A stretch of DNA of 64,000 nucleotides from an uncultured Alphaproteobacteria bacterium (lineage in GTDB: Bacteria; Pseudomonadota; Alphaproteobacteria; HIMB59; GCA-002718135), in assembly GCA_902614085.1 (NCBI GenBank), contig CACMJS010000001.1:549127-613126 (forward strand), written 5' to 3'. Both the position numbers and the translations under genes were made by a program. This document shows positions 1 through 11,967 of the stretch, one piece after another (positions within the stretch are counted from its first letter, which is position 1; each line of letters opens with the position of its first letter). The notes under the pieces were generated by a model. The model ran no database searches. It was not told the origin of the DNA and was given only the letters and a program-made list of their open reading frames with translations.

Positions 1-602
1 TGCAATACTTGTGCTTGTATTGATACATCTAGAGCACTTACAGCTTCATCACAAACTATTAGTTCTGGCTCTAAACATAACGCTCTTACAATACCTATAC
101 GTTGTCTTTGGCCACCTGAAAATTCGTGAGGATAACGATCCATATATTCTCTTCTCATGTTAACTGCTTCAAGAAGATCTCCTATAATTTTTCTTCTTTC
201 TTCTTTTGATTTAACTCCAAATTTTTTTAAAGGATCTTGCAGCGAGCCAAATATTGTAAATGAAGGATTTAGTGAAGAGTGAGGGTCCTGGAATACAATT
301 TGAAGTTTTTTTCGAAAAGGATCCATATCTTTTTTCTCTAATGATGTTAATTCAGTCTCTTCATCCTCCTTTGATACAAATGTAACTTCACCATCAGTAG
401 GCTCCACTAATCTCAATATAGCTTTTCCTAATGTAGTTTTACCACATCCACTTTCACCAGCTAATCCTAGAACCTCTCCACGGTAAATATCAAGATCAAC
501 ACCATCAACAGCCATAACGTGACCCACAACTCTATTAAAGACACCTGCTTGAACCGGAAAGTGCACTTTTACATTACGTAATTTAAGAATTTCTTTTTTC
601 AT
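1..602 (-). CDS. Peptide-type ABC transporter ATP-binding protein (DppF/OppF-like), partial
   Basis: Second ATPase of a dipeptide/oligopeptide-type ABC importer; it hydrolyses ATP on the cytoplasmic face of the permease pair. About 200 N-terminal residues are in the window and the C-terminal end lies beyond base 1. The visible reading frame has Walker A (GESGCGKTT, about residues 47-55), the signature FSGGQRQR and Walker B with LIVCDEAVSALD. The ATG at 602 overlaps the end of the preceding ATPase gene by 20 bases, so translation is probably coupled. It is the last visible gene of the minus-strand operon that starts with the binding protein at 5169. The substrate cannot be read from the sequence. 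Family assignment is secure. Confidence 0.93.
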   Translation of the reverse strand, partial: MKKEILKLRNVKVHFPVQAGVFNRVVGHVMAVDGVDLDIYRGEVLGLAGESGCGKTTLGKAILRLVEPTDGEVTFVSKEDEETELTSLEKKDMDPFRKKLQIVFQDPHSSLNPSFTIFGSLQDPLKKFGVKSKEERRKIIGDLLEAVNMRREYMDRYPHEFSGGQRQRIGIVRALCLEPELIVCDEAVSALDVSIQAQVL

Positions 603-1611
603 TATATTTTTCAAAAAATTGTTCGTATTTGTGACATCTTATTTGGTGCGTATCATTAATTTGTGTAATTTCTGGCATAATATCACAACTTTCAGTTTGC
701 CAATTACAACGCGGTGCGAATTGACATCCAACTGGTCTATTGTACGGATCAGGAGTTGATCCTTTAATTGGATTAATATCTTGGTTCTTTCCTCTACCTA
801 GCACTGGCACAGATTCAAGTAATGCTTTTGTATATGGATGTGTAGGGCGTCTCAAAACATCATCAGCTGTTCCTGCTTCTACTATATTTCCCATATACAT
901 AACTGCAACATTATCTGCTAATTCAGCAACAACTCCCATATCGTGCGTAATTAGAATTATTGCTGTGTCATTTTCTTTCTTAAGTTTTTCCATTAGTTCA
1001 AATATTTGAGCTTGAATTGTAACATCAAGAGCAGTTGTTGGTTCATCAGCAATTAATATTTTAGGATTGCATGCCATAGCCATTGCTATCATTGCTCTTT
1101 GTCTCATTCCCCCAGAATAACTATGTGGGTATTCATCAACTCTTTTTTCTGGGAGAGGTATTCCCATGTCACTGAGAAGAGAAATACATTTTTCTCTAAT
1201 TTGTTTTTTATTAAGATTGGTGTGATACTTAAGATTTTCACTTATTTGAAAACCAACAGTGTATACGGGATTTAGTGCTGTCATTGGATCTTGAAAGATC
1301 ATTGCAATATCTGACCCTCTAATTTCCCGCATCTCTTTTCCATTTTTTTCTAATTTCTCAATGTTGATTATTTTATTATCCTTCCGAAATTTAATTTCAC
1401 CTTCCTCAATGCGCGATAAAGTTGGAAGTAGTTGCATAATTGTTGCGGCTGTAACACTTTTTCCACACCCACTTTCACCAACAATACAGAGTGTTTTCCC
1501 TTTCTCAACATCAAAGGAAACTCCGTTAACTGCTTTGTTACATCTATTATTAGTATAAAAAAATGTTTTTAAATCTCTAACAGATAAGGCTATATTATCT
1601 TTATCATCCAT
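583..1611 (-). CDS. Peptide-type ABC transporter ATP-binding protein (DppD/OppD-like)
   Basis: First ATPase of the same importer, 342 residues, full length for the family. Walker A GESGCGKSV lies near residues 45-53, the signature is YSGGMRQR, Walker B is ILIADEPTTALD, and the H-loop is LITHDMGVVAE. The C-terminal oligopeptide-transporter extension begins at PTHPYTKALL. It carries four cysteines (CQFAPRC, then ESC and IRC), the arrangement that holds an iron-sulfur cluster in characterised Dpp ATPases. That role is taken from the family and was not shown here. The gene starts two bases after the upstream permease stop and overlaps the next ATPase by 20 bases. The nickel or glutathione variants of this family cannot be excluded. 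Confidence 0.95.
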   Translation of the reverse strand: MDDKDNIALSVRDLKTFFYTNNRCNKAVNGVSFDVEKGKTLCIVGESGCGKSVTAATIMQLLPTLSRIEEGEIKFRKDNKIINIEKLEKNGKEMREIRGSDIAMIFQDPMTALNPVYTVGFQISENLKYHTNLNKKQIREKCISLLSDMGIPLPEKRVDEYPHSYSGGMRQRAMIAMAMACNPKILIADEPTTALDVTIQAQIFELMEKLKKENDTAIILITHDMGVVAELADNVAVMYMGNIVEAGTADDVLRRPTHPYTKALLESVPVLGRGKNQDINPIKGSTPDPYNRPVGCQFAPRCNWQTESCDIMPEITQINDTHQIRCHKYEQFFEKYNEKRNS

Positions 1612-1613
1612 AA

Positions 1614-2528
1614 TTAACCTTGTTGTGATGGATCTGTTGAATCACGTAGACCATCTCCAATGAAATTAACACAAAGAACAAAAACTGAAATTACAATTCC
1701 AACGGGACCCCACATCCACCAATAATTTTGTAAAATTAAAATATCTTGTGCAACATTTAATATATTGCCCCATGTCGGTATATTAAGAGGGACACCCAAT
1801 CCAAGAAAACTTAAACCAGCTTCTGTTAAAATAAACATTGCCGTTGAAAGAGTAATATTAACCATAATAGGACTTAATGCATTTGGAAGCATATGTTTGT
1901 AGCAAATAGTAAAAGTAGATAAGCCAAAACTTCTAAGAGCCTGAACGTACTCTTCTTCTCTTAAAGATAACATTCTTGCTCTAGCAAGCCTATACATACC
2001 ACCCCATCCAGTAACAATAAATATTGCCATCAGATTGAATAAACTTTGACCAGTTATTGATACAAGTAACAAAACCAATATTATTTGTGGGAATGACATG
2101 AATATTTCTGAAACTCTTAATGCAATTACATCTATCCAACCACCTTTGTATCCTGCATAACAACCAACTGCGATACCAACAACAGCAGATAAGATAGCAC
2201 TTCCTAAGCCTATAAAAATTGAAACTCTACCGCCATATAGAACTCTAGCAAAAACATCTCGACCTGTACTATCGGTTCCAAACCAATGATCAAATGATGG
2301 CGGCTGTCTCATTGATCGTAAATCTACTCGCATTGGATCATATGGAGACAGAATTGGTGCAAAGATTGATGCTAAAACTATAATTGTAAAAATTATTAAT
2401 CCTATTACAGCTAATCGATTATTTAAAAATTTATTTACTATTCTACTTCTTTTATTAGTTGAAAACGTTTTTTCTTCTTCACGTTTTTTTATTTGATCGA
2501 ATTTTCTATTTAAAGATGAATTTGCCAT
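1614..2528 (-). CDS. Peptide-type ABC transporter permease (DppC/OppC-like)
   Basis: Inner-membrane permease subunit, 304 residues. After a charged cytoplasmic N-terminus there is a first membrane segment near residues 37-57 and the periplasmic stretch PYDPMRVDLRSMRQPPS, followed by GTDSTGRDVFARVLYG, which is typical of the DppC family. The EAA-type loop facing the ATPase appears around VQALRSFGLSTFTICYKHMLPN. At least five more hydrophobic segments follow. The start codon overlaps the stop of the partner permease (TAATG), so the two subunits are likely made in equal amounts. Membership of the DppC family is clear; the substrate is unknown. Confidence 0.95.
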   Translation of the reverse strand: MANSSLNRKFDQIKKREEEKTFSTNKRSRIVNKFLNNRLAVIGLIIFTIIVLASIFAPILSPYDPMRVDLRSMRQPPSFDHWFGTDSTGRDVFARVLYGGRVSIFIGLGSAILSAVVGIAVGCYAGYKGGWIDVIALRVSEIFMSFPQIILVLLLVSITGQSLFNLMAIFIVTGWGGMYRLARARMLSLREEEYVQALRSFGLSTFTICYKHMLPNALSPIMVNITLSTAMFILTEAGLSFLGLGVPLNIPTWGNILNVAQDILILQNYWWMWGPVGIVISVFVLCVNFIGDGLRDSTDPSQQG

Positions 2529-3493
2529 TATTCTTTACCTAACCTCACTCTTGGATCAATTAATGCTGTTAACACATCTATAATTAAACTTGCTGTAAGA
2601 ACCACAAATACATACATCAATGATATTGTCATAACTAGGGGGTAATCTGATCCTCGAACAGATCGAATAAACATATTACCGATTCCAGGCCACTGATAAA
2701 CCTGCTCAATGATAGTTGAGCCTCCTATAAGTAAAGGCAATCTAAATCCAATAAGAACTACTACAGGAGTTAATGCTACTCTAAAACCATGGAGTAGATT
2801 TACTCTCCATTCAGGCATACCTTTTGAGCGCGCTGTTGTAATAAATTCTCTTGCGAGAACATCTAGCATTGATGATCTTGCGTAACGCATTGCTCCAGCA
2901 GTCATCATTAATGCTAATACAAGAGAAGGAAGAACAATATTTGGAATTCTATCCCAAACTGTTTCATAACTAGGAAGTAGTCTTCCTCCAACAGGTAACC
3001 ATTGTAATTCTATTGCAAATAAAAGAATGGCTACAAGTCCAAAAAAAAATTCTGGGATAGATACACCGGCCATTCCAGCAACAGTAAGAGAATTATCTGT
3101 TGCAGAACCTCTTTTTAGTGCACTTAAAACTCCTAAAGAACATCCAATTATTGTTGAGAAAAATAGAGCAACTAATGAAAGCTCTAAAGTTGCAGGAACT
3201 GTCTTTGCCATAATTTCTGAAATTGCAACACCTCCAGCCATGGAATATCCCATATCGCCTTGCACCATACTTGTTAACCAAATCCAGTATCTAGTTAAAA
3301 AACTTTTATTTAACCCATAAGCTTCTCTCATTGCTTCAAGCTGTTCAGCAGTAATACTAAGTGCTAGTTCTGGACTAATCATATGAGAGACTGCGTCACC
3401 AGGAGATAACTCCAGACCTCCATAAACAAGAAAGCTAATGGCGAGCAGCATTGGAAAGAATATAAATAAACGTTGTATGATATAAGTTGTCAC
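2528..3493 (-). CDS. Peptide-type ABC transporter permease (DppB/OppB-like)
   Basis: Inner-membrane permease partner, 321 residues, with six predicted membrane segments. Family features include the N-terminal YIIQRLFIFFPMLL segment, GLNKSFLTRYWIWLTSMVQGDMGYS, and an EAA loop around EFITTARSKGMPEWRV. The C-terminal region IIEQVYQWPGIGNMFIRSVRG is diagnostic of DppB. The frame begins with GTG at 3493; no better ATG lies nearby. A hairpin with an A/T tract separates this gene from the binding-protein gene upstream, so the membrane subunits are probably expressed at a lower level than the binding protein. Start choice is moderately certain, family is secure. Confidence 0.94.
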   Translation of the reverse strand: MTTYIIQRLFIFFPMLLAISFLVYGGLELSPGDAVSHMISPELALSITAEQLEAMREAYGLNKSFLTRYWIWLTSMVQGDMGYSMAGGVAISEIMAKTVPATLELSLVALFFSTIIGCSLGVLSALKRGSATDNSLTVAGMAGVSIPEFFFGLVAILLFAIELQWLPVGGRLLPSYETVWDRIPNIVLPSLVLALMMTAGAMRYARSSMLDVLAREFITTARSKGMPEWRVNLLHGFRVALTPVVVLIGFRLPLLIGGSTIIEQVYQWPGIGNMFIRSVRGSDYPLVMTISLMYVFVVLTASLIIDVLTALIDPRVRLGKE

Positions 3494-3516: not shown

Positions 3517-3545
3517 AAAAAAAAGCTGAGGCAAATGCCTCAGCT
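3517..3545 (-). terminator. Rho-independent terminator after the binding-protein gene, inside the operon
   Basis: A perfect 9-base stem (AGCTGAGGC / GCCTCAGCT) with an AAAT loop lies between the binding-protein stop and the permease start. Read on the minus strand it is followed by a run of seven to eight T residues. Position and structure suggest partial termination, or protection of the 3' end of the binding-protein message, giving excess binding protein over transporter. The structure is seen directly; the effect on expression is inferred. Confidence 0.85.
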
Positions 3546-3561
3546 TCAATAGTTTATTTAA

Positions 3562-5169
3562 CTATGGTTTTGGATACTGCATGATCCACATCATACGAGT
3601 ATATGGAATATCAACAGCTTTTGTTGACATGTTTGCCATAGCATCTAATGCAGCAACGTCGGCTACGTTTTTAGTAAATCCGTAGTCCATTTTTCCTGCA
3701 GCAGCATTTTTAATTAAGTTACCATCACCATCAAAACTTGGATAAGCAATGATATCAAAACCAGCTTTTCCACCATGATAGTTATCAAAAGGAACTAATT
3801 TAGCAAAATCGTTCATTTTTACTTCAGTAACTTTAAATGGTCCAGATCCTACCGGCATTTGCCAGAAATCACTTTGTTGTAACTGATTTGGATCTACATC
3901 ACCTAGTTTATGCTTTGGTAAAATAGCAAACTGAGAGAACGTAGTTAGGATATTAGGGTCAAGTGTCGCCATCTCTAACGTGATAGTTCTATCAGCAATA
4001 CTGTATTTAATACCTGCAACATCATCAGTGGAACCATTTTTAAATGCTTCTGCACCTTTGATAGAGTTTACTGTATTAACAACTACAGAATGAATTCGAG
4101 GAGCTTTAATTGCAGTACGAATACTCCATGCAACATCCTCAACTGTAAAGTCATCTCCATCATGCCATGTTAGACCATCTCTTAACTTAAAAGTTAAAGA
4201 CATTCCATCAGGAGCAAGATCATAGCTTTCACAAGCTGAACAACCAGTTGGAACTAAGCCACCGTCTGCTACTAAAAGTCTATCAAAGACAACTTTTGAA
4301 TGGATCCATATACCTAAGTTGTACCAAGGCTGCTCGAAGAATTCAATTGGACCAGTATTTGTTTGTAAAACACCGCCATCAACCTTCCAGTTTTCAATTT
4401 TCCAGTCGTAATTGTATTGATCGTTACCATACATCTCACCATTTCTGCTTACCTTGTCACTTTCATAGATGAAAAGTTTTTGATAATATAATGGACAGAT
4501 GTTAGCTTTTTCCATTTGATATTCTTGAATTTCAAAGAAATAAGGCTTTAAAACTTCTGGATCTGCACTTGAATTAATTTTTTCAATTAGCGCGTCCATT
4601 TTTGGATCACCAGGAGTTTGTGGGTTTAGACCAGTTTTAAAACTATTGTAATACTCTTGCATTGCAATTGCTGCACGAGCACCATATCCTAAGTCGTAGT
4701 CAACAGCAGCTGGTCCATTAACACCGTCCTCAGGAACTGAGTTAAGTTGTGCACCAACATCACCTTGCAATAGACGATACGTCATTTTAACTCCAACATC
4801 TGCAAAGTATGCTTGTATTGCAGCCATGAAGTCAGTAGTCAACTGATCACCGTAGTAAAACACCATGTCTAGTTCTCTGTTTGAGTCCCAATTTGCTTCT
4901 GCTAACAATTGACGTGCCTTTTCAGGGTTGTAACTGTAATCAGGAAGGTTAGGTGATTTATACGGACCATTTGGTAATAAACTATCCGCCATTATTATTT
5001 GATCTTCAAATAATGTTTCACCGATAGTTTTCATGTCGATAGCCATACACAATGCTTGTCTGACACGAGGATCGGATAATTGGTTACTGTTTGTAGGTTG
5101 AGCAGAAGCTGATGAAATGAACATCAGATGAGCCAACACTGCAACTATAACCACATATAGTTTTTTCAT
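3562..5169 (-). CDS. Peptide-type ABC transporter binding protein (SBP family 5), circularly permuted
   Basis: Periplasmic solute-binding protein, 535 residues with a signal peptide (residues 1-23, cleavage after SASA). The start is set at 5169 because an ideal AGGAGG lies just upstream; an in-frame upstream start at 5208 has no such site. Domain order is inverted relative to the family. After the signal comes SDPRVRQALCMAID (about 32-45), which normally lies in the second half, continuing to DWKIENWKV (to 263), a typical C-terminal end. Then GGVLQTNTGPIEFF (about 265) and LTFKLRDGLTWHDGDDFTVEDV, which normally form the mature N-terminus and lobe I, run to the stop at YPKP. Nothing seems missing or duplicated. 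The fold could still close, because the natural ends of these proteins are near each other. Ligand unknown. Confidence 0.9.
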   Translation of the reverse strand: MKKLYVVIVAVLAHLMFISSASAQPTNSNQLSDPRVRQALCMAIDMKTIGETLFEDQIIMADSLLPNGPYKSPNLPDYSYNPEKARQLLAEANWDSNRELDMVFYYGDQLTTDFMAAIQAYFADVGVKMTYRLLQGDVGAQLNSVPEDGVNGPAAVDYDLGYGARAAIAMQEYYNSFKTGLNPQTPGDPKMDALIEKINSSADPEVLKPYFFEIQEYQMEKANICPLYYQKLFIYESDKVSRNGEMYGNDQYNYDWKIENWKVDGGVLQTNTGPIEFFEQPWYNLGIWIHSKVVFDRLLVADGGLVPTGCSACESYDLAPDGMSLTFKLRDGLTWHDGDDFTVEDVAWSIRTAIKAPRIHSVVVNTVNSIKGAEAFKNGSTDDVAGIKYSIADRTITLEMATLDPNILTTFSQFAILPKHKLGDVDPNQLQQSDFWQMPVGSGPFKVTEVKMNDFAKLVPFDNYHGGKAGFDIIAYPSFDGDGNLIKNAAAGKMDYGFTKNVADVAALDAMANMSTKAVDIPYTRMMWIMQYPKP

Positions 5170-5170
5170 A

Positions 5171-5179
5171 TTTCCTCCT
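5171..5179 (-). promoter_or_regulatory. Strong Shine-Dalgarno site for the binding-protein gene
   Basis: On the minus strand the sequence AGGAGGAAA ends one base before the ATG at 5169. It is one of the best ribosome sites in the window. It fixes the start of the binding protein at the signal peptide and fits the high expression expected of a periplasmic binding protein. Confidence 0.85.
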
Positions 5180-5301: not shown

Positions 5302-6288
5302 TTAGTTTTTTATACTAACTCTTTTTAGCATTTTTTCATGCATTTCTTTGGATCCATCATGATAAGTTCCAAACCATTGATCAAATGGAATCATTAGATT
5401 TCCGTAGTTTACCTCAAAATATTTATGATGAAGATAATGATTATAATTACTGAGATCTATCGCTCTCTTATCATTGATCATCATTTGCTTAAAACCTATA
5501 TGACCATTTGCTGATCCTAAGCCCGCGTGAAATAAATGATAAGTAGCATGAAGCGGATGTGAGAGAATAATCCAATGAATGATAACACCAGAAAAATATA
5601 ATAAATGTTCAATAGGATGCATTGATAGGCTAGACCAAGGTCCTGGATTAACATTTCGATGATGTACAGAGTGAGCAATTTTGTACATGAATTTAAAATG
5701 CAAAAATCGATGAATTAAATAAAAGTGAGCATCTCTAAATGCTGGAATTAGTAAAAGAATAATAAAGAAATAAATTGGAGCTTCACTGAATTGAACAAAA
5801 GGTACCAAACCAGAAGCATAAAACCAAAAAGATAAAACCTCATAAGCTGTCCAAATAGGAACACCCCAAAACAAACTCCAAAATAAATTATCAAATATTT
5901 GTTTATTAAATGTAAATATATTTTGAATTTTTTCTGGCCAGTTTGGATTAAATTTAAATTTAATTCCCTGAGATTTTTTTACGTAAAGAGGTATATGTAT
6001 TAAACTAAAAAAAATTGTACCAATTACATAGTTCCGAATTAAAATTTCAGAAATCCAACCTGGTGAAAAATTCTTCATTTCGGAAAGCGCAGGTGTAAAA
6101 AAATAGTAAGCGATAAACGCAACAGCTAAGTAAACAAGATTCCAAGAAAAAATATATGAAAAGATAAACCAGTCAAAAATTTTCTTTAAATTAAAAGGAA
6201 GTATCCATACAGGATTTTTATCAGCCGCTTCTTTAGGAACGAAGTGACCTCTTTTATCTCTATATCCAAAATTTTCTTCTTTAATCAT
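5302..6288 (-). CDS. Fatty acid hydroxylase / sterol desaturase family protein
   Basis: Integral membrane di-iron enzyme of the fatty acid hydroxylase superfamily, 328 residues. The three histidine clusters that bind iron are visible: HFYLIHRFLH near residue 188, HSVHHRN near 206, and HHYLHHKYFE near 285. There are about four hydrophobic segments before and between them (for example around residues 45-65 and 160-180). Such proteins hydroxylate or desaturate lipid, carotenoid or sterol substrates using oxygen; this member's substrate cannot be told. It sits alone between the transporter operon and the repair cluster on the same strand, with 132 bases to the binding-protein start. Confidence 0.9.
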   Translation of the reverse strand: MIKEENFGYRDKRGHFVPKEAADKNPVWILPFNLKKIFDWFIFSYIFSWNLVYLAVAFIAYYFFTPALSEMKNFSPGWISEILIRNYVIGTIFFSLIHIPLYVKKSQGIKFKFNPNWPEKIQNIFTFNKQIFDNLFWSLFWGVPIWTAYEVLSFWFYASGLVPFVQFSEAPIYFFIILLLIPAFRDAHFYLIHRFLHFKFMYKIAHSVHHRNVNPGPWSSLSMHPIEHLLYFSGVIIHWIILSHPLHATYHLFHAGLGSANGHIGFKQMMINDKRAIDLSNYNHYLHHKYFEVNYGNLMIPFDQWFGTYHDGSKEMHEKMLKRVSIKN

Positions 6289-6345: not shown

Positions 6346-7914
6346 TTAACTCAGCTTAAATTCTTTTTTAAATTCACTTATTGTTAATACCTCATTAACT
6401 GGTTTGTCCCAACGAATGCGGTGTATTCTTGGGAATCTCATCGCTACACCTGACTTATGTCTAGTACTTGGAAATACATCATCGAAGGCTACTTCTAATA
6501 TAATCTCTTTTTTTACTTCTCTCACGGGACCAAATTTATTGATAGTATTATTCCTAATAAATTTATCTAATACTAATAGTTCTTTGTCAGTGTAACCGGA
6601 ATAAGCCTTTCCTATTGGTACTAATTCACTCTCATTCCAAACACCAAAAGTAAAATCTGAATAATACGATGATCTTTTACCATGTCCTCGTTGAGCATAC
6701 ATTAAAATAGCATCAACTAGTTTTGGATTTTTTTTCCATTTATACCAATATCCCTTTTTTCTTCCTGGTAAATATTCACTATTTTTAAGTTTAATCATAA
6801 CTCCTTCATTCAAATCATCATGAATGTTATTTTTATATTTAGTTAATTCTTCCCAGGTTGAAAAATTAATGATGGATGATAAATCAATTTGATTAGTTTT
6901 ATTTTCTTTTTGAAATTTCTCTAAATAATTTCTTCTTTCAAAAAGAGATAATTTTCTTAAATCTTTCCCTTTATAAAAAAGGATATCATAAGCTCGTATA
7001 AAAACAGGAAATTTATTTTGAAGATCTTTTGACGCTTTTTTTCTATTTAACCTTTGTTGTAGATCATTAAAACCTGAGGGTTTAAAATTTCTCCCTACAA
7101 GTAATTCCCCGTCAATAACCGCATCACCTTTAGTAGTTTCAATTATTTCAGGGAATGCAGATGATATATTATCACCTGTTCTTGAGTATAGTGAAACACT
7201 TTTTGATGAAACCATAAGCTGAACTCTAATTCCATCCCATTTATATTCTGCTTGAAATTCATTTGCGTCTAATCTTTTAAAATCTTTTTCCTCATCAATA
7301 GGGTTAGCAAGCATCATAGGATGAAATAATTTTTTAAAATCTATTTTTGGTTTTGATGTTTCATTTTTTAACCATTGAAATAAATTTTCATATGGAAATT
7401 CTAAACCATGCCAAATTTCTTCAATCTCATTTACAGACTTGTTATAAAGATCAGCTAAAGCCGTTTTTACTAATCTTTCCGAGACTCCAATTCGTAACCC
7501 GCCCGTGCAAATTTTAATTAAAGTCCACCTTTCGTTATTAGATAGTTCGTTCAAAATTTTATTAAACTCTATATTAATTTCAGACTTTTTAATTTTTTTA
7601 ATATTTTCTATTAAGGTAGATAAATTTTGTGATTTTCCCTCTTTTTTTGTAGGCCAAATTAATGATATTGTTTCTGCTAAATCCCCAACATAGTCATATG
7701 AGTAATCAAATAAATGTTGATCTACTTGCTCATAGACAAGCTCTCTAAGTTTAGACGCTTTAATAAATTGAAATGAAAGTTGGTCAGATAAAATTGAAAG
7801 CGCATATGAGCGGTTGATATCAAGTATTTTAAAATAATCTTGAAGTAATTTAATTTTGGTATTTCGACTTGGTGTTAAAATCAAATTGTGAAGTAAGTAA
7901 GAAAATTTTTTCAT
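6346..7914 (-). CDS. ATP-dependent DNA ligase (LIG of the Lhr-Core repair cluster)
   Basis: ATP-dependent DNA ligase, 522 residues, that seals nicks through a lysyl-AMP intermediate. An N-terminal DNA-binding domain (to about 190) precedes the adenylation domain. The latter has motif I EYKWDG (K225 predicted nucleophile), motif III VIDGELL near 266, motif IV EGVMIK and motif V KGYWYKWKK. The OB domain follows, ending with RFPRIHRIRWDKP. It overlaps the MBL-fold exonuclease gene by four bases (ATGA). Bacterial clusters pairing this ligase type with an exonuclease, Lhr-Core helicase and phosphoesterase have been described as a DNA repair gene set. Replicative joining is presumably done by an NAD-dependent ligase elsewhere. 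Confidence 0.95.
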   Translation of the reverse strand: MKKFSYLLHNLILTPSRNTKIKLLQDYFKILDINRSYALSILSDQLSFQFIKASKLRELVYEQVDQHLFDYSYDYVGDLAETISLIWPTKKEGKSQNLSTLIENIKKIKKSEINIEFNKILNELSNNERWTLIKICTGGLRIGVSERLVKTALADLYNKSVNEIEEIWHGLEFPYENLFQWLKNETSKPKIDFKKLFHPMMLANPIDEEKDFKRLDANEFQAEYKWDGIRVQLMVSSKSVSLYSRTGDNISSAFPEIIETTKGDAVIDGELLVGRNFKPSGFNDLQQRLNRKKASKDLQNKFPVFIRAYDILFYKGKDLRKLSLFERRNYLEKFQKENKTNQIDLSSIINFSTWEELTKYKNNIHDDLNEGVMIKLKNSEYLPGRKKGYWYKWKKNPKLVDAILMYAQRGHGKRSSYYSDFTFGVWNESELVPIGKAYSGYTDKELLVLDKFIRNNTINKFGPVREVKKEIILEVAFDDVFPSTRHKSGVAMRFPRIHRIRWDKPVNEVLTISEFKKEFKLS

Positions 7915-8900
7915 TCTATTTCCTCATCACTTCTTCCTTGGATGGAAAGGGGCTTTGAAATAAGATTTTGTTTTTTACAATAATAAACTAATGCATCTTC
8001 TTGACCATGTGTAATAAGAATATTTTTCGCATTTGATTTTTTAATTGTATCTAATAATTCATTCCAATCGCTATGATCACTAATAACTAATGGTAATTCA
8101 ATACCTTGTTGTTTTGCTCTTTGCTTAACAGTCATCCATCCACTTGCCATGCAAATAATAGGATTAGGAAATCGTCTTGACCAACGATCTTTTAATGCTG
8201 AAGGAGGGGCAATAATTATTTTACCCTCATAAAAGTTTTTATCTTTTGAAGAGACTTTTTCAAACTTTCCAATATTAATTTTTTCTTTTGAATAATATTG
8301 GCATAACTTTTCTAGAGAGCCATGAATATAAATTGTCTCATTATATTTCTGCTGGCGTAAAAGATTCATTACTCTTTGTGCTTTACCAAGAGCATACGCA
8401 CCTACAATATGACAATTATTTTTATTTATCTTTACAGATCGTATGAGTTTTTGAATTTCATCTTTGGGATCTGGATGTTGAAATATGGGTAATCCAAATG
8501 TTGCTTCGGTAATTAAAGTATCACATTTAACCAGTTTGAAATTTTTACATGTTTCATCTTTTCCTACTTTATAATCACCTGTGATGACTAAACGATGATT
8601 ATTTTTTTCAATTAAAACTTGAGCACTCCCTAAAATATGTCCGGCAGGGTGAAGTGTAAAATCATAGTTTTTAATTGAGTATTTTTGTCCGTATCTAAGA
8701 GGAGTAAATTTTTTCGCACATTTATCTCCGTAGCGAATTTTCATTATGTCTATTGTTTGCCTAGTAGCAATAACATGATCATGTCCAAATCGGGCATGAT
8801 CTGCGTGACCATGTGTAATAATTGCTGTTTTTTTCGGCAATATTGGATCTATATGTACATTTATATCTTTGATAAATAGCTGATGGTTAATGAAATCCAT
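7911..8900 (-). CDS. MBL-fold exonuclease (MBL of the Lhr-Core repair cluster)
   Basis: Metallo-beta-lactamase-fold nuclease of the beta-CASP/CPSF-like type, 329 residues. The metal ligands are in HGHADH (about residues 30-35), HPAGHILGSAQ (about 83), ITGDYK, SDHSDWNELL and the late ITHGQEDAL motif. Annotation tools often call this family an mRNA 3'-end processing factor, but in bacteria it travels with an ATP-dependent ligase and Lhr-type helicase, suggesting DNA or RNA end trimming in repair. Its ATG at 8900 directly abuts the ATG of the helicase gene on the other strand at 8901, leaving no intergenic promoter space. Biochemical polarity cannot be deduced. Confidence 0.93.
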   Translation of the reverse strand: MDFINHQLFIKDINVHIDPILPKKTAIITHGHADHARFGHDHVIATRQTIDIMKIRYGDKCAKKFTPLRYGQKYSIKNYDFTLHPAGHILGSAQVLIEKNNHRLVITGDYKVGKDETCKNFKLVKCDTLITEATFGLPIFQHPDPKDEIQKLIRSVKINKNNCHIVGAYALGKAQRVMNLLRQQKYNETIYIHGSLEKLCQYYSKEKINIGKFEKVSSKDKNFYEGKIIIAPPSALKDRWSRRFPNPIICMASGWMTVKQRAKQQGIELPLVISDHSDWNELLDTIKKSNAKNILITHGQEDALVYYCKKQNLISKPLSIQGRSDEEIE

Positions 8901-11333
8901 ATGAATATAAATAAATCGAATCCCTTATTATTACACCCCTTAAACAAGTGGATGAATAAAAAAAAATGGTCCTGGTTTCCTCATCAAATTGAAACCTTTC
9001 TTCATGTTCGAACTGGGTCCGATGTTGTTGTATTTGCTCCTACTGGTGCTGGCAAAACGTTAACAGGGTTTATTAATCCAATAGATGATTTAATAAAATT
9101 AAAAAAATTTAAAGGTCTTCATACTCTCTATATTTCTCCATTAAAATCACTTGCAAACGATATTGTGAGAAATTTAGAGAAACCTATTAAAGAGCTTGAT
9201 TTGAAAATTTCATTTCAAGTAAGAACAGGAGACACAACACCATATAAAAAACAAAAACAAAAACAAAAACCTCCTAACATTCTTATTACAACCCCAGAAT
9301 CACTTGCATTATTAAACTCGTATGAGAATGCGAAAGAATTTTTTTTCAATCTAAAATATATAATTATTGATGAGATACACACTTTTTTGGATAATAAGAG
9401 AGCTGATCTTCTAAGTTTAAATATTGAAAGATTACAAACTTTCTCTCCAAATTTACAACGAATAGGGTTGTCTGCAACTCTCAAAAATAAACAAGATGCA
9501 AAAAAATGGCTTTGTCGCAAAAAACCAAAAATAGTTTCCTATGAAAATTCAGTTTTACCTAAGATTAAAATTCTAGAATCAAAAGAACGTATTCCTTGGT
9601 CTGGTCATATGGCTACATATTCTATTAATGAAATTTATAAAGAAATAATGAAATCAAAATTAACTATTATTTTTGTTAATACGAGGGCGCAAGCCGAATA
9701 TATGTTTAAAAACTTATGGCTAATTAATAAGAAAAAATTAAAAATTGCTGTTCACCATGGTTCATTAGAAAAAAACTTACGTTTAAAAGTAGAAAATAAT
9801 CTTAGCAAAGGATTAGTTGACTGTGTTGTTGCGACCTCTTCTTTAGAACTTGGATTAGATTATGGAGATGTAGAAAAAATTATTCAAGTTGGAGCACCTA
9901 AAGGAATTAATAGATTATTACAGCGTGTAGGAAGATCAAATCATAATTTAAATACACCTTCAAAAGCAATTTTAGTACCTACTAATCGTTTTGAATTTAT
10001 CGAAGCAAAAGCTGCTATTGAAGAAATAAAAAATAACAACTTAGATAAAATAGATTTAAAAGAAGGAAGCTTTGATGTTGTGGCTCAGCACATTTTTGCA
10101 ACAGCCTGTGCTGGGCAATTTAATATAAATAATCTCTATTCAGAAATTATTAAAGCCTATCCATACAAAAAACTAAAACTTAATGATTTTAAACAATTGA
10201 TTAATCTCATACAAGATGGTGGATATGTTTTAAAAAACTATGATCAATTTAAGAGAATCTTCCAACTGAGAGAAAATAAAAATATTTATAAGCTAGTAAA
10301 TAAAAGAGAAACACGAAAATACCGCATGAATGTTGGAACAATAATTGAAAATCCGATGTTAAAAATAAAATTAGGAACAAAAACGTTAGGGAATATAGAA
10401 GAAGTTTTTATTCAAAATCTTTCTCAAGGTGATTCATTTATATTTGCTGGTCAAGTTCTAGAATTTCAATCAATGAAAAATAATTTAGTACAAGTTAAAA
10501 GAAGTAAATCTTTAATTTCAAAAATTCCATCATACTCTGGAGGTAGAATGCCATTATCAACAAATTTGGCTAACTCAGTTAGGACTTTATTGGCAAAAAG
10601 TAGTATGTGGGATTTATATCCAGATCAAATTACTGAATGGTTAAAAAGACAAAAAAATATATCTAAAATTCCAAAAAAGGATGAATATCTAGTAGAACAA
10701 TTCCTCCGAAAAAAAAATTTTTATACTGTTATCTATACTTTTGCAGGATGGCATGCCAATCAAACACTAGGATTTTTATTGCTTAGAGGCTTTAAGGAAT
10801 TTGATTATAAACCTCTAGGTTTTGTCGCAAATGATTACGCTATTGTTTTATGGTCTTTAAAAGAAGTAAAAGAAATAAAAAAGATCCTAAATATTGGATT
10901 GTTAGATAAACATTTAGATAATTATCTTGAAGAAACTTCAATGGTCAAAAGATTGTTTAGAGATAATGCAATTATATCTTGTTTAATAGAAAGAAGGTTG
11001 CCAGGGATGGAAAAAACTGGGAAGCAAGTTTTATTTAGTTCAGATCTAATTTATACAGTATTAAAAAAAAATGAACCAGATCACATTCTTCTAAAATCAT
11101 CATATGAAGACGCAAAAAAGAATATGATTGATTATGATAGACTTAGAGAAATCTTAAAAAAAATTGATAAAAAAATTATATTAAAAAAACTCACAAGTAT
11201 CTCACCATTGGCTGTTCCAATTATTCTTGAAATAAATAGAGAAAATTTATCAAAAAAAGAAACTGATGAATATATTTTAGAGGATTTAGAAAATGAAATA
11301 TTAAAAGAGGCTAATGTACTATCAATTAATTAA
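8901..11333 (+). CDS. Lhr-Core type DEAD/H helicase
   Basis: Superfamily 2 helicase of the Lhr-Core type, 810 residues from the chosen start. Motifs run in order: Walker A APTGAGKT (about 46-53), TTPESLAL, DEIH (about 157-160), GLSATL, VNTRAQAEY, VATSSLELGLDYGD and QRVGRSNH. A winged-helix and Lhr-specific C-terminal region follow. An in-frame ATG exists at 8883, but that would place 18 bases inside the divergent exonuclease gene; 8901 makes the two start codons touch exactly, and neither has a clear ribosome site. The gene overlaps the phosphoesterase gene by 20 bases. Lhr-Core enzymes are ATP-driven 3'-5' translocases that unwind RNA:DNA hybrids, so a role in repair of nucleic-acid damage is likely. 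Confidence 0.95.
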   Translation: MNINKSNPLLLHPLNKWMNKKKWSWFPHQIETFLHVRTGSDVVVFAPTGAGKTLTGFINPIDDLIKLKKFKGLHTLYISPLKSLANDIVRNLEKPIKELDLKISFQVRTGDTTPYKKQKQKQKPPNILITTPESLALLNSYENAKEFFFNLKYIIIDEIHTFLDNKRADLLSLNIERLQTFSPNLQRIGLSATLKNKQDAKKWLCRKKPKIVSYENSVLPKIKILESKERIPWSGHMATYSINEIYKEIMKSKLTIIFVNTRAQAEYMFKNLWLINKKKLKIAVHHGSLEKNLRLKVENNLSKGLVDCVVATSSLELGLDYGDVEKIIQVGAPKGINRLLQRVGRSNHNLNTPSKAILVPTNRFEFIEAKAAIEEIKNNNLDKIDLKEGSFDVVAQHIFATACAGQFNINNLYSEIIKAYPYKKLKLNDFKQLINLIQDGGYVLKNYDQFKRIFQLRENKNIYKLVNKRETRKYRMNVGTIIENPMLKIKLGTKTLGNIEEVFIQNLSQGDSFIFAGQVLEFQSMKNNLVQVKRSKSLISKIPSYSGGRMPLSTNLANSVRTLLAKSSMWDLYPDQITEWLKRQKNISKIPKKDEYLVEQFLRKKNFYTVIYTFAGWHANQTLGFLLLRGFKEFDYKPLGFVANDYAIVLWSLKEVKEIKKILNIGLLDKHLDNYLEETSMVKRLFRDNAIISCLIERRLPGMEKTGKQVLFSSDLIYTVLKKNEPDHILLKSSYEDAKKNMIDYDRLREILKKIDKKIILKKLTSISPLAVPIILEINRENLSKKETDEYILEDLENEILKEANVLSIN

Positions 11334-11967
11334 TTTTGGTAATGAAGAATTTCATGCTTACCCAAATAAATCTCTTTATTGGAAAAGACTAAATACCCTG
11401 ATCGTATCAGATTTACATATAGGAAAATCTATTAGTTATGCAAAGAATAAACAATTCTTACCTCCGTATGATACAAAAGATTTATTAAACAAAATTTTTG
11501 TTAGTTTAGATAAGATTAAACCAAGAAATTTAATTATTGTTGGTGATTTATTACACGATGTTTTTTCAACTTTGAGTTTAAAAGATCAAGATTATAAAAA
11601 TCTTAGTCAATATATGAAAAATACTGATTTCATATGGATCAAGGGTAATCATGATAAAAATATACAAATTGAAGGTTTTAAAAATTTTACAAATTACAAA
11701 ATTGAAAAATTTTTATTTACACACATACCTATCGAAACACCTTTATTTCAAATTTGTGGTCACTATCATCCAAAAGTAAAAATTGTACACAGAGGGAAAA
11801 CTATTTTTAAAACATCTTTTGTGCATAATGAAAAAATATTCATTTTACCAAGTTTTGGAATTTTAACAGGTGGGTTGGATATCCATTCTAAGGAAATAAG
11901 CGATGTATTGGGTAAGAAAAATTTGAATATTTATCCTGTGGGACAGGATAAAGTTTATAAATTATAA
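11314..11967 (+). CDS. Metallophosphoesterase (MPE/PdeM-like) of the Lhr-Core cluster
   Basis: Calcineurin-fold phosphoesterase, 217 residues. The di-metal motifs are SDLHIGK (D33, H35), GDLLHD (D78), GNHDK (about 111-115), FTHIP and GHYHPKV. Family members linked to Lhr helicases act as manganese-dependent DNA nucleases or phosphodiesterases. It begins inside the end of the helicase gene after a good AGAGG site, so the two products are probably made together. The 3' end overlaps the convergent DUF4149 gene by 13 bases. Membership of the helicase-linked phosphoesterase family is well supported; the precise activity is inferred. Confidence 0.9.
   Translation: MYYQLINFGNEEFHAYPNKSLYWKRLNTLIVSDLHIGKSISYAKNKQFLPPYDTKDLLNKIFVSLDKIKPRNLIIVGDLLHDVFSTLSLKDQDYKNLSQYMKNTDFIWIKGNHDKNIQIEGFKNFTNYKIEKFLFTHIPIETPLFQICGHYHPKVKIVHRGKTIFKTSFVHNEKIFILPSFGILTGGLDIHSKEISDVLGKKNLNIYPVGQDKVYKL

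Follow-up and report, generated by a model that had tools for sequence, protein, structure and literature searches.

The window, a stretch of 64,000 nucleotides of DNA from an uncultured alphaproteobacterium, holds a gene for a binding protein (SBP) of an ABC importer whose two halves appear to stand in the wrong order. An earlier note, made from the sequence by eye, read the product as a circularly permuted protein and named an assembly error as the alternative. The locus therefore raises the question of whether the swapped order is real and, if it is, whether the gene is in use, where the chain has been cut and what the protein might bind. The explanation that we prefer is a working periplasmic SBP of a Dpp/Opp-type ABC importer with a naturally circularly permuted chain, and we give this explanation as a whole a probability of roughly 85%. 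The features of the locus are collected in Table 1.

Table 1. Features of the SBP gene and its operon, in positions of the window
Feature	Position	Strand	Basis or detail
OppF/DppF-type ATPase, start only	1..614	(-)	locus L110
OppD/DppD-type ATPase	583..1611	(-)	PF00005, PF08352
OppC/DppC-type permease	1614..2528	(-)	PF00528, PF12911
OppB/DppB-type permease	2528..3493	(-)	PF00528, PF19300
Stem-loop between SBP stop codon and oppB	3522..3547	(-)	9/9 orthologues compared
Stop codon TAG	3562..3564	(-)	orthologues: TAG or TAA, same place
SBP gene	5169-3562	(-)	ATG 5169-5167, stop 3564-3562; 535 aa
Residues 264-535, conventional first half (domain I + domain II), now C-terminal	3565..4380	(-)	structure and profile matches
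Fusion, old C-terminus ENWKV / old mature N-terminus DGGVLQ	4363..4395	(-)	alignment, orthologues
Residues 24-263, conventional second half, now N-terminal	4381..5100	(-)	structure and profile matches
Signal peptide MKKLYVVIVAVLAHLMFISSASA, residues 1-23	5101..5169	(-)	sequence; kept in orthologues
Shine-Dalgarno AGGAGG of the SBP gene	5174..5179	(-)	sequence

Order of the halves and position of the cut

PF00496 (SBP_bac_5) is the sole Pfam family matched by the SBP, and it matches in two separate stretches, with 172.6 bits against a curated cut-off of 32.4. No homology to the cluster B sugar SBPs was seen, and among the solved structures listed as matches, only family 5-type SBPs are found. 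Against 5isu, the order is reversed, with residues 313-477 of the SBP aligned to 63-212 of the structure and residues 27-232 to 266-470. Restoring the conventional order of the halves yields one collinear match, which pairs residues 31-510 with 39-496 of the 8efz chain and reaches the chain end.

We also built a test profile solely from conventional-order SBPs. The native chain gives two reversed matches to it, of 82 and 105 bits, in which model positions 285-500 fall on mature residues 5-222 and positions 78-277 on 289-505; the reordered chain gives one match of 200.0 bits over positions 78-500. Since the native matches meet at model positions 277 and 285, essentially nothing appears to be missing or doubled. 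Twenty other random rotations of the chain all scored below 200.0 bits, with 199.6 for a cut 3 residues away, 199.0 for one 9 residues away and values down to 123 for the others, and a held-out conventional SBP showed the opposite behaviour, as expected. In a two-half test, all 43 permuted-type ORFs (some of them genes fetched twice) came out as permuted and every other SBP ORF fetched as conventional.

Judged from these alignments, the protein is a circularly permuted family 5 (cluster C) SBP, a homologue of the family rather than a standard member. This agrees with the earlier note in most particulars. The reversed structure and profile matches place the second half directly after the signal peptide and the first half last, and the collinear 200.0-bit match obtained on reordering indicates that the two make up one complete family 5 protein with no loss or repeat. 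The boundaries stand where that note had drawn them (residues 24-263 at 5100-4381 and 264-535 at 4380-3565), and the signal peptide, the AGGAGG ribosome site and the oppBCDF-type operon position are intact. It had also proposed an alignment to family 5 proteins as a check, and this yields two segments in reversed order, the native chain not being collinear. That the chain is in truth collinear with ordinary family 5 proteins and its order was simply misjudged has almost no probability: we found no point in favour of such a reading, and the structure matches, the two-half test and the profile test all give the swapped order.

The mature protein begins with QPTNSNQLSDPR, after a probable signal peptidase I site behind ASA, the cleavage position being judged by eye. 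Residues 24-263 comprise domain III followed by the C-terminal piece of domain I. The peptide across the fusion is VDGGVLQTNTGPIEFFEQPWYNLGIWIHSK, with no signal peptide and no obvious linker between ENWKV and DGGVLQ, and residues 264-535 end in YPKP, at the domain I/III hinge.

Aligned with Escherichia coli DppA, the SBP has the join KP|TNSN opposite mature residues 272-274. Domain III of OppA comprises residues 270-486 (PMC6305025), and the matching hinge loop of pneumococcal AliC is the place where lobes are exchanged between chains (PMC11192437); the domains described for AliD (PMC11192437) were likewise used in mapping the hinge. On the DppA, OppA and AliC mapping, the chain would run from domain III through domain I to domain II and end at the hinge. 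The new ends are thereby placed at the lobe-lobe hinge, just after the first crossing from domain I to domain III, and one of the two hinge crossings is probably cut. AlphaFold gave a pLDDT of 44 with the permuted orthologues alone and 49 when conventional SBP fragments from viral contigs were added, neither model being confident. A Foldseek search with the pLDDT 49 model listed family 5-type SBPs as its 50 best matches, with TM-scores of only ~0.24-0.31 over 175-253 columns. The fold and the hinge geometry are accordingly inferred from sequence.

The stem-loop behind the stop codon carries paired changes among the nine orthologues (GCTGAGGC/GCCTCAGC, ACTGAGGCC/GGCCTCAGT and GTACTGAGGC/GCCTCAGTAC). 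Its presence speaks for the stop codon being where the gene really ends, and it would fit a differential-expression or mRNA-end signal between the SBP and permease genes. In the short gap between the stop codon and oppB we saw no trace of a lost third part of the SBP. At the other end of the gene, three loci from the wider search (L055, L060 and L063) share a stretch around TTATTATGTTTTCAATATAGGCTTGTCT, ~40-90 bases upstream of the SBP start codon, which is perhaps a promoter or regulator site and is not evident upstream of the window's copy.

Occurrence in relatives and selection

The permuted gene is present in 26 of 162 genomes of the order, and all 26 belong to one of its seven genera. In 24 of these the gene is full length, permuted end to end and in one frame; the other two are contig-end fragments. 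Full-length orthologues in the window's genus are about 76-88% identical to the window's SBP, with distinct sequences, and one further record, probably conspecific with the window, shows 100% identity along the 486 residues present on its contig. Many of the carrier genomes are independently assembled single cells, and the genes flanking the SBP are syntenic across carriers.

The earlier note had suggested looking for the same order in related genomes. The order recurs at full length in 24 genomes from a single genus of marine Alphaproteobacteria, probably of the AEGEAN-169/HIMB59 group, and many of these are separate single-cell assemblies, which disposes of that note's own alternative. The swapped order is not an assembly error, since it recurs at 76-88% identity in many single-cell assemblies. 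A draft of 11 contigs, such as the window's genome, could in principle contain a false join, but an artefact of assembly or binning is scarcely credible when 23 further full-length genomes have the same order in distinct sequences with syntenic flanks.

None of the 162 genomes of the order yielded an orthologue in conventional order, nor did the class or phylum samples yield such a relative at comparable identity. The plasmid search for a close conventional relative gave a best identity of ~27%, viral contigs searched with both the SBP and the permease held no close conventional-order relative, and the phylum search with the lyase described below returned no close relative. Searching the class with the permease gave only operons of 34-38% identity; we took out three of these regions, and their SBPs are conventional. 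A candidate carrier outside the class, a gammaproteobacterial MAG (L063), was set aside as a probable chimera; at L063:6001-6163, the first 54 residues of a permuted SBP lie at a contig end, behind foreign or unrelated upstream genes.

The permuted order is fixed in one genus and, on the evidence of codon comparisons, is held there by purifying selection, with dN/dS of about 0.04-0.24 in both SBP halves (pairs with dS of about 0.5 or more). The protein is known here from genes alone, and one could therefore regard the gene as a decaying relic that yields no useful protein. We consider this very improbable, as the reading frame is intact in every full-length permuted copy, dN/dS is low in both halves, the stem-loop after the stop codon is conserved and the gene is linked to its cognate permease and lyase genes.

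Divergence along the gene is uneven. Compared with its nearest relatives in the genus, the window's SBP is 82-83% identical in the second coding half and 91-93% in the first. The SBPs at L060:6001-7605 and L054:3347-4951 have bodies that are 96-99% identical as protein and signal peptides only 65% alike, and the L060 signal peptide resembles that of the window; the 5' end of this gene looks to have been recombined between lineages.

Operon context and candidate ligand

A close OppB orthologue (82-94% identity) occurs in exactly nine of the sampled genus members, which are those with the permuted SBP. Beyond the window, the neighbouring locus holds the rest of the OppF gene, followed by nanA, nanE, nanK and an aminotransferase gene. 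The gene order SBP-OppB-C-D-F-NanA holds in all carrier loci that extend as far as the NanA position, and nanE and a nanK-like kinase gene are also in the operon of most carriers; in one carrier lineage, nanE and nanK are absent at the operon position. A lyase of 70-100% identity was found in eight of the 38 genus members searched, every one of them a carrier of the permuted SBP; in the ninth carrier of that sample, the 3.3 kb contig with the SBP stops short of the lyase position.

In the window's genome, NanA scores 285.7 against a cut-off of 281 with the NCBIfam N-acetylneuraminate lyase model, and NanE 277.8 against 189 as N-acetylmannosamine-6-phosphate epimerase, while the ManNAc-kinase-like nanK gene falls below its cut-off. 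NanA matches solved N-acetylneuraminate lyases with E-values of about 1e-55, compared with about 3e-34 for DapA. Within about 25 kb there are two BNR-type, sialidase-like genes and one for an amidohydrolase, whose NagA match is below cut-off; no nagB was found in the window's genome, which speaks against the sialic-acid reading given below. A fatty acid hydroxylase gene (PF04116) at 5302-6288 adjoins a cluster at 6346-11967, in which we recognized by eye an ATP-dependent DNA ligase, a metallo-beta-lactamase-type exonuclease, an Lhr-type helicase and a phosphoesterase.

Sialic acid or another nonulosonic acid is the ligand towards which we lean, because nanA, mostly with nanE and the nanK-like kinase gene, is in the same operon. 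The sialic acid-binding SatA is among the weaker solved matches of the SBP (entries 5yyb, 5z99 and 5za4, at about 7e-9 (6.7e-9), well below the best match), and the substrate reading is accordingly drawn from the gene neighbourhood only. A working permuted SBP with a different ligand, for example a peptide, an opine-like compound or another sugar acid, is a less probable but serious competitor. Among solved structures, those closest to the protein are SBPs for peptides, nickel and amino compounds, with SatA not among the best; one lineage keeps only the lyase, without nanE and nanK there; and the aminotransferase gene is accompanied nearby by genes for an M81 metallopeptidase family protein and by PhyH-type genes. 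Against this, NanA and NanE both exceed curated cut-offs and NanA travels with the SBP. A peptide ligand is further disfavoured at the residues R383 and D436, which hold the peptide ends in DppA (PMC12136057): in the permuted orthologues compared, the first position is a gap and the second an arginine, though the alignment is weak in this region.

Origin and comparison with known systems

As a working permuted SBP, the protein would be exported by Sec and would take up the usual two-lobed Venus flytrap fold, with domain III made first. Its lobes, covalently linked by a single crossing rather than two, would then close on the ligand, which would be handed on to OppBCDF. The permutation probably began with a tandem duplication, after which the outer halves were lost; neither the 162 genomes of the order nor the class and phylum samples yielded an intermediate, a duplicate or an unpermuted orthologue. 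A bolder proposal, which we offer as speculative, is that the cutting of one of two hinge strands altered closing behaviour and affinity and that selection kept the change, in a sialic-acid-type importer of streamlined ocean bacteria.

Permuted binding proteins are known as an engineers' route to sensors. A conserved case in family 5, the large peptide/nickel/opine family, would show that evolution can cut one of its two lobe connections and leave the importer still under selection, and it would provide a ready case in nature for testing the purpose of the double hinge. It is also of practical concern, as annotation that depends on order can misjudge permuted genes.

The earlier note knew of no described case in this family. 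For family 5 itself this holds, as we found no natural permuted SBP of the family in the open-access literature (subscription literature lay outside the search), but it does not extend to SBPs at large, as a natural permutation is known in another cluster. TpMglB-2 (Tp0684) of Treponema pallidum, designated ‘Type Ic / Cluster Bc’, is a naturally circularly permuted SBP of an ABC importer; its permutation is conserved in relatives, and ligand binding and closure have been shown by experiment (PMC4990184). The SBP described here is likewise a natural permutation conserved in relatives. TpMglB-2, however, is a cluster B (type I, sugar-binding) protein in which part of one lobe has moved and a fourth hinge crossing has been gained through the permutation. 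The present SBP, by contrast, seems to have one of its two crossings cut. The two are independent events in different SBP clusters.

SatABCD of Haemophilus ducreyi is a sialic acid ABC importer, and its SatA (PDB 5z99) has three domains, with two beta strands joining the lobes as a hinge (PMC11364026). The system in the window is also an ABC importer, with sialic acid breakdown genes (nanA and nanE, above cut-off) in its operon. SatA itself is of conventional order, matches the permuted profile weakly and is not a near relative of the permuted SBP. With DppA, OppA, AppA and NikA (PF00496), by comparison, the protein shares homology along almost the entire length of both halves, and the signal peptide and the OppB, OppC, OppD and OppF-type partner genes are as usual for family 5. 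What sets the protein apart from these SBPs is that its halves are swapped, the old ends fused and the new ends placed at the domain I/III hinge.
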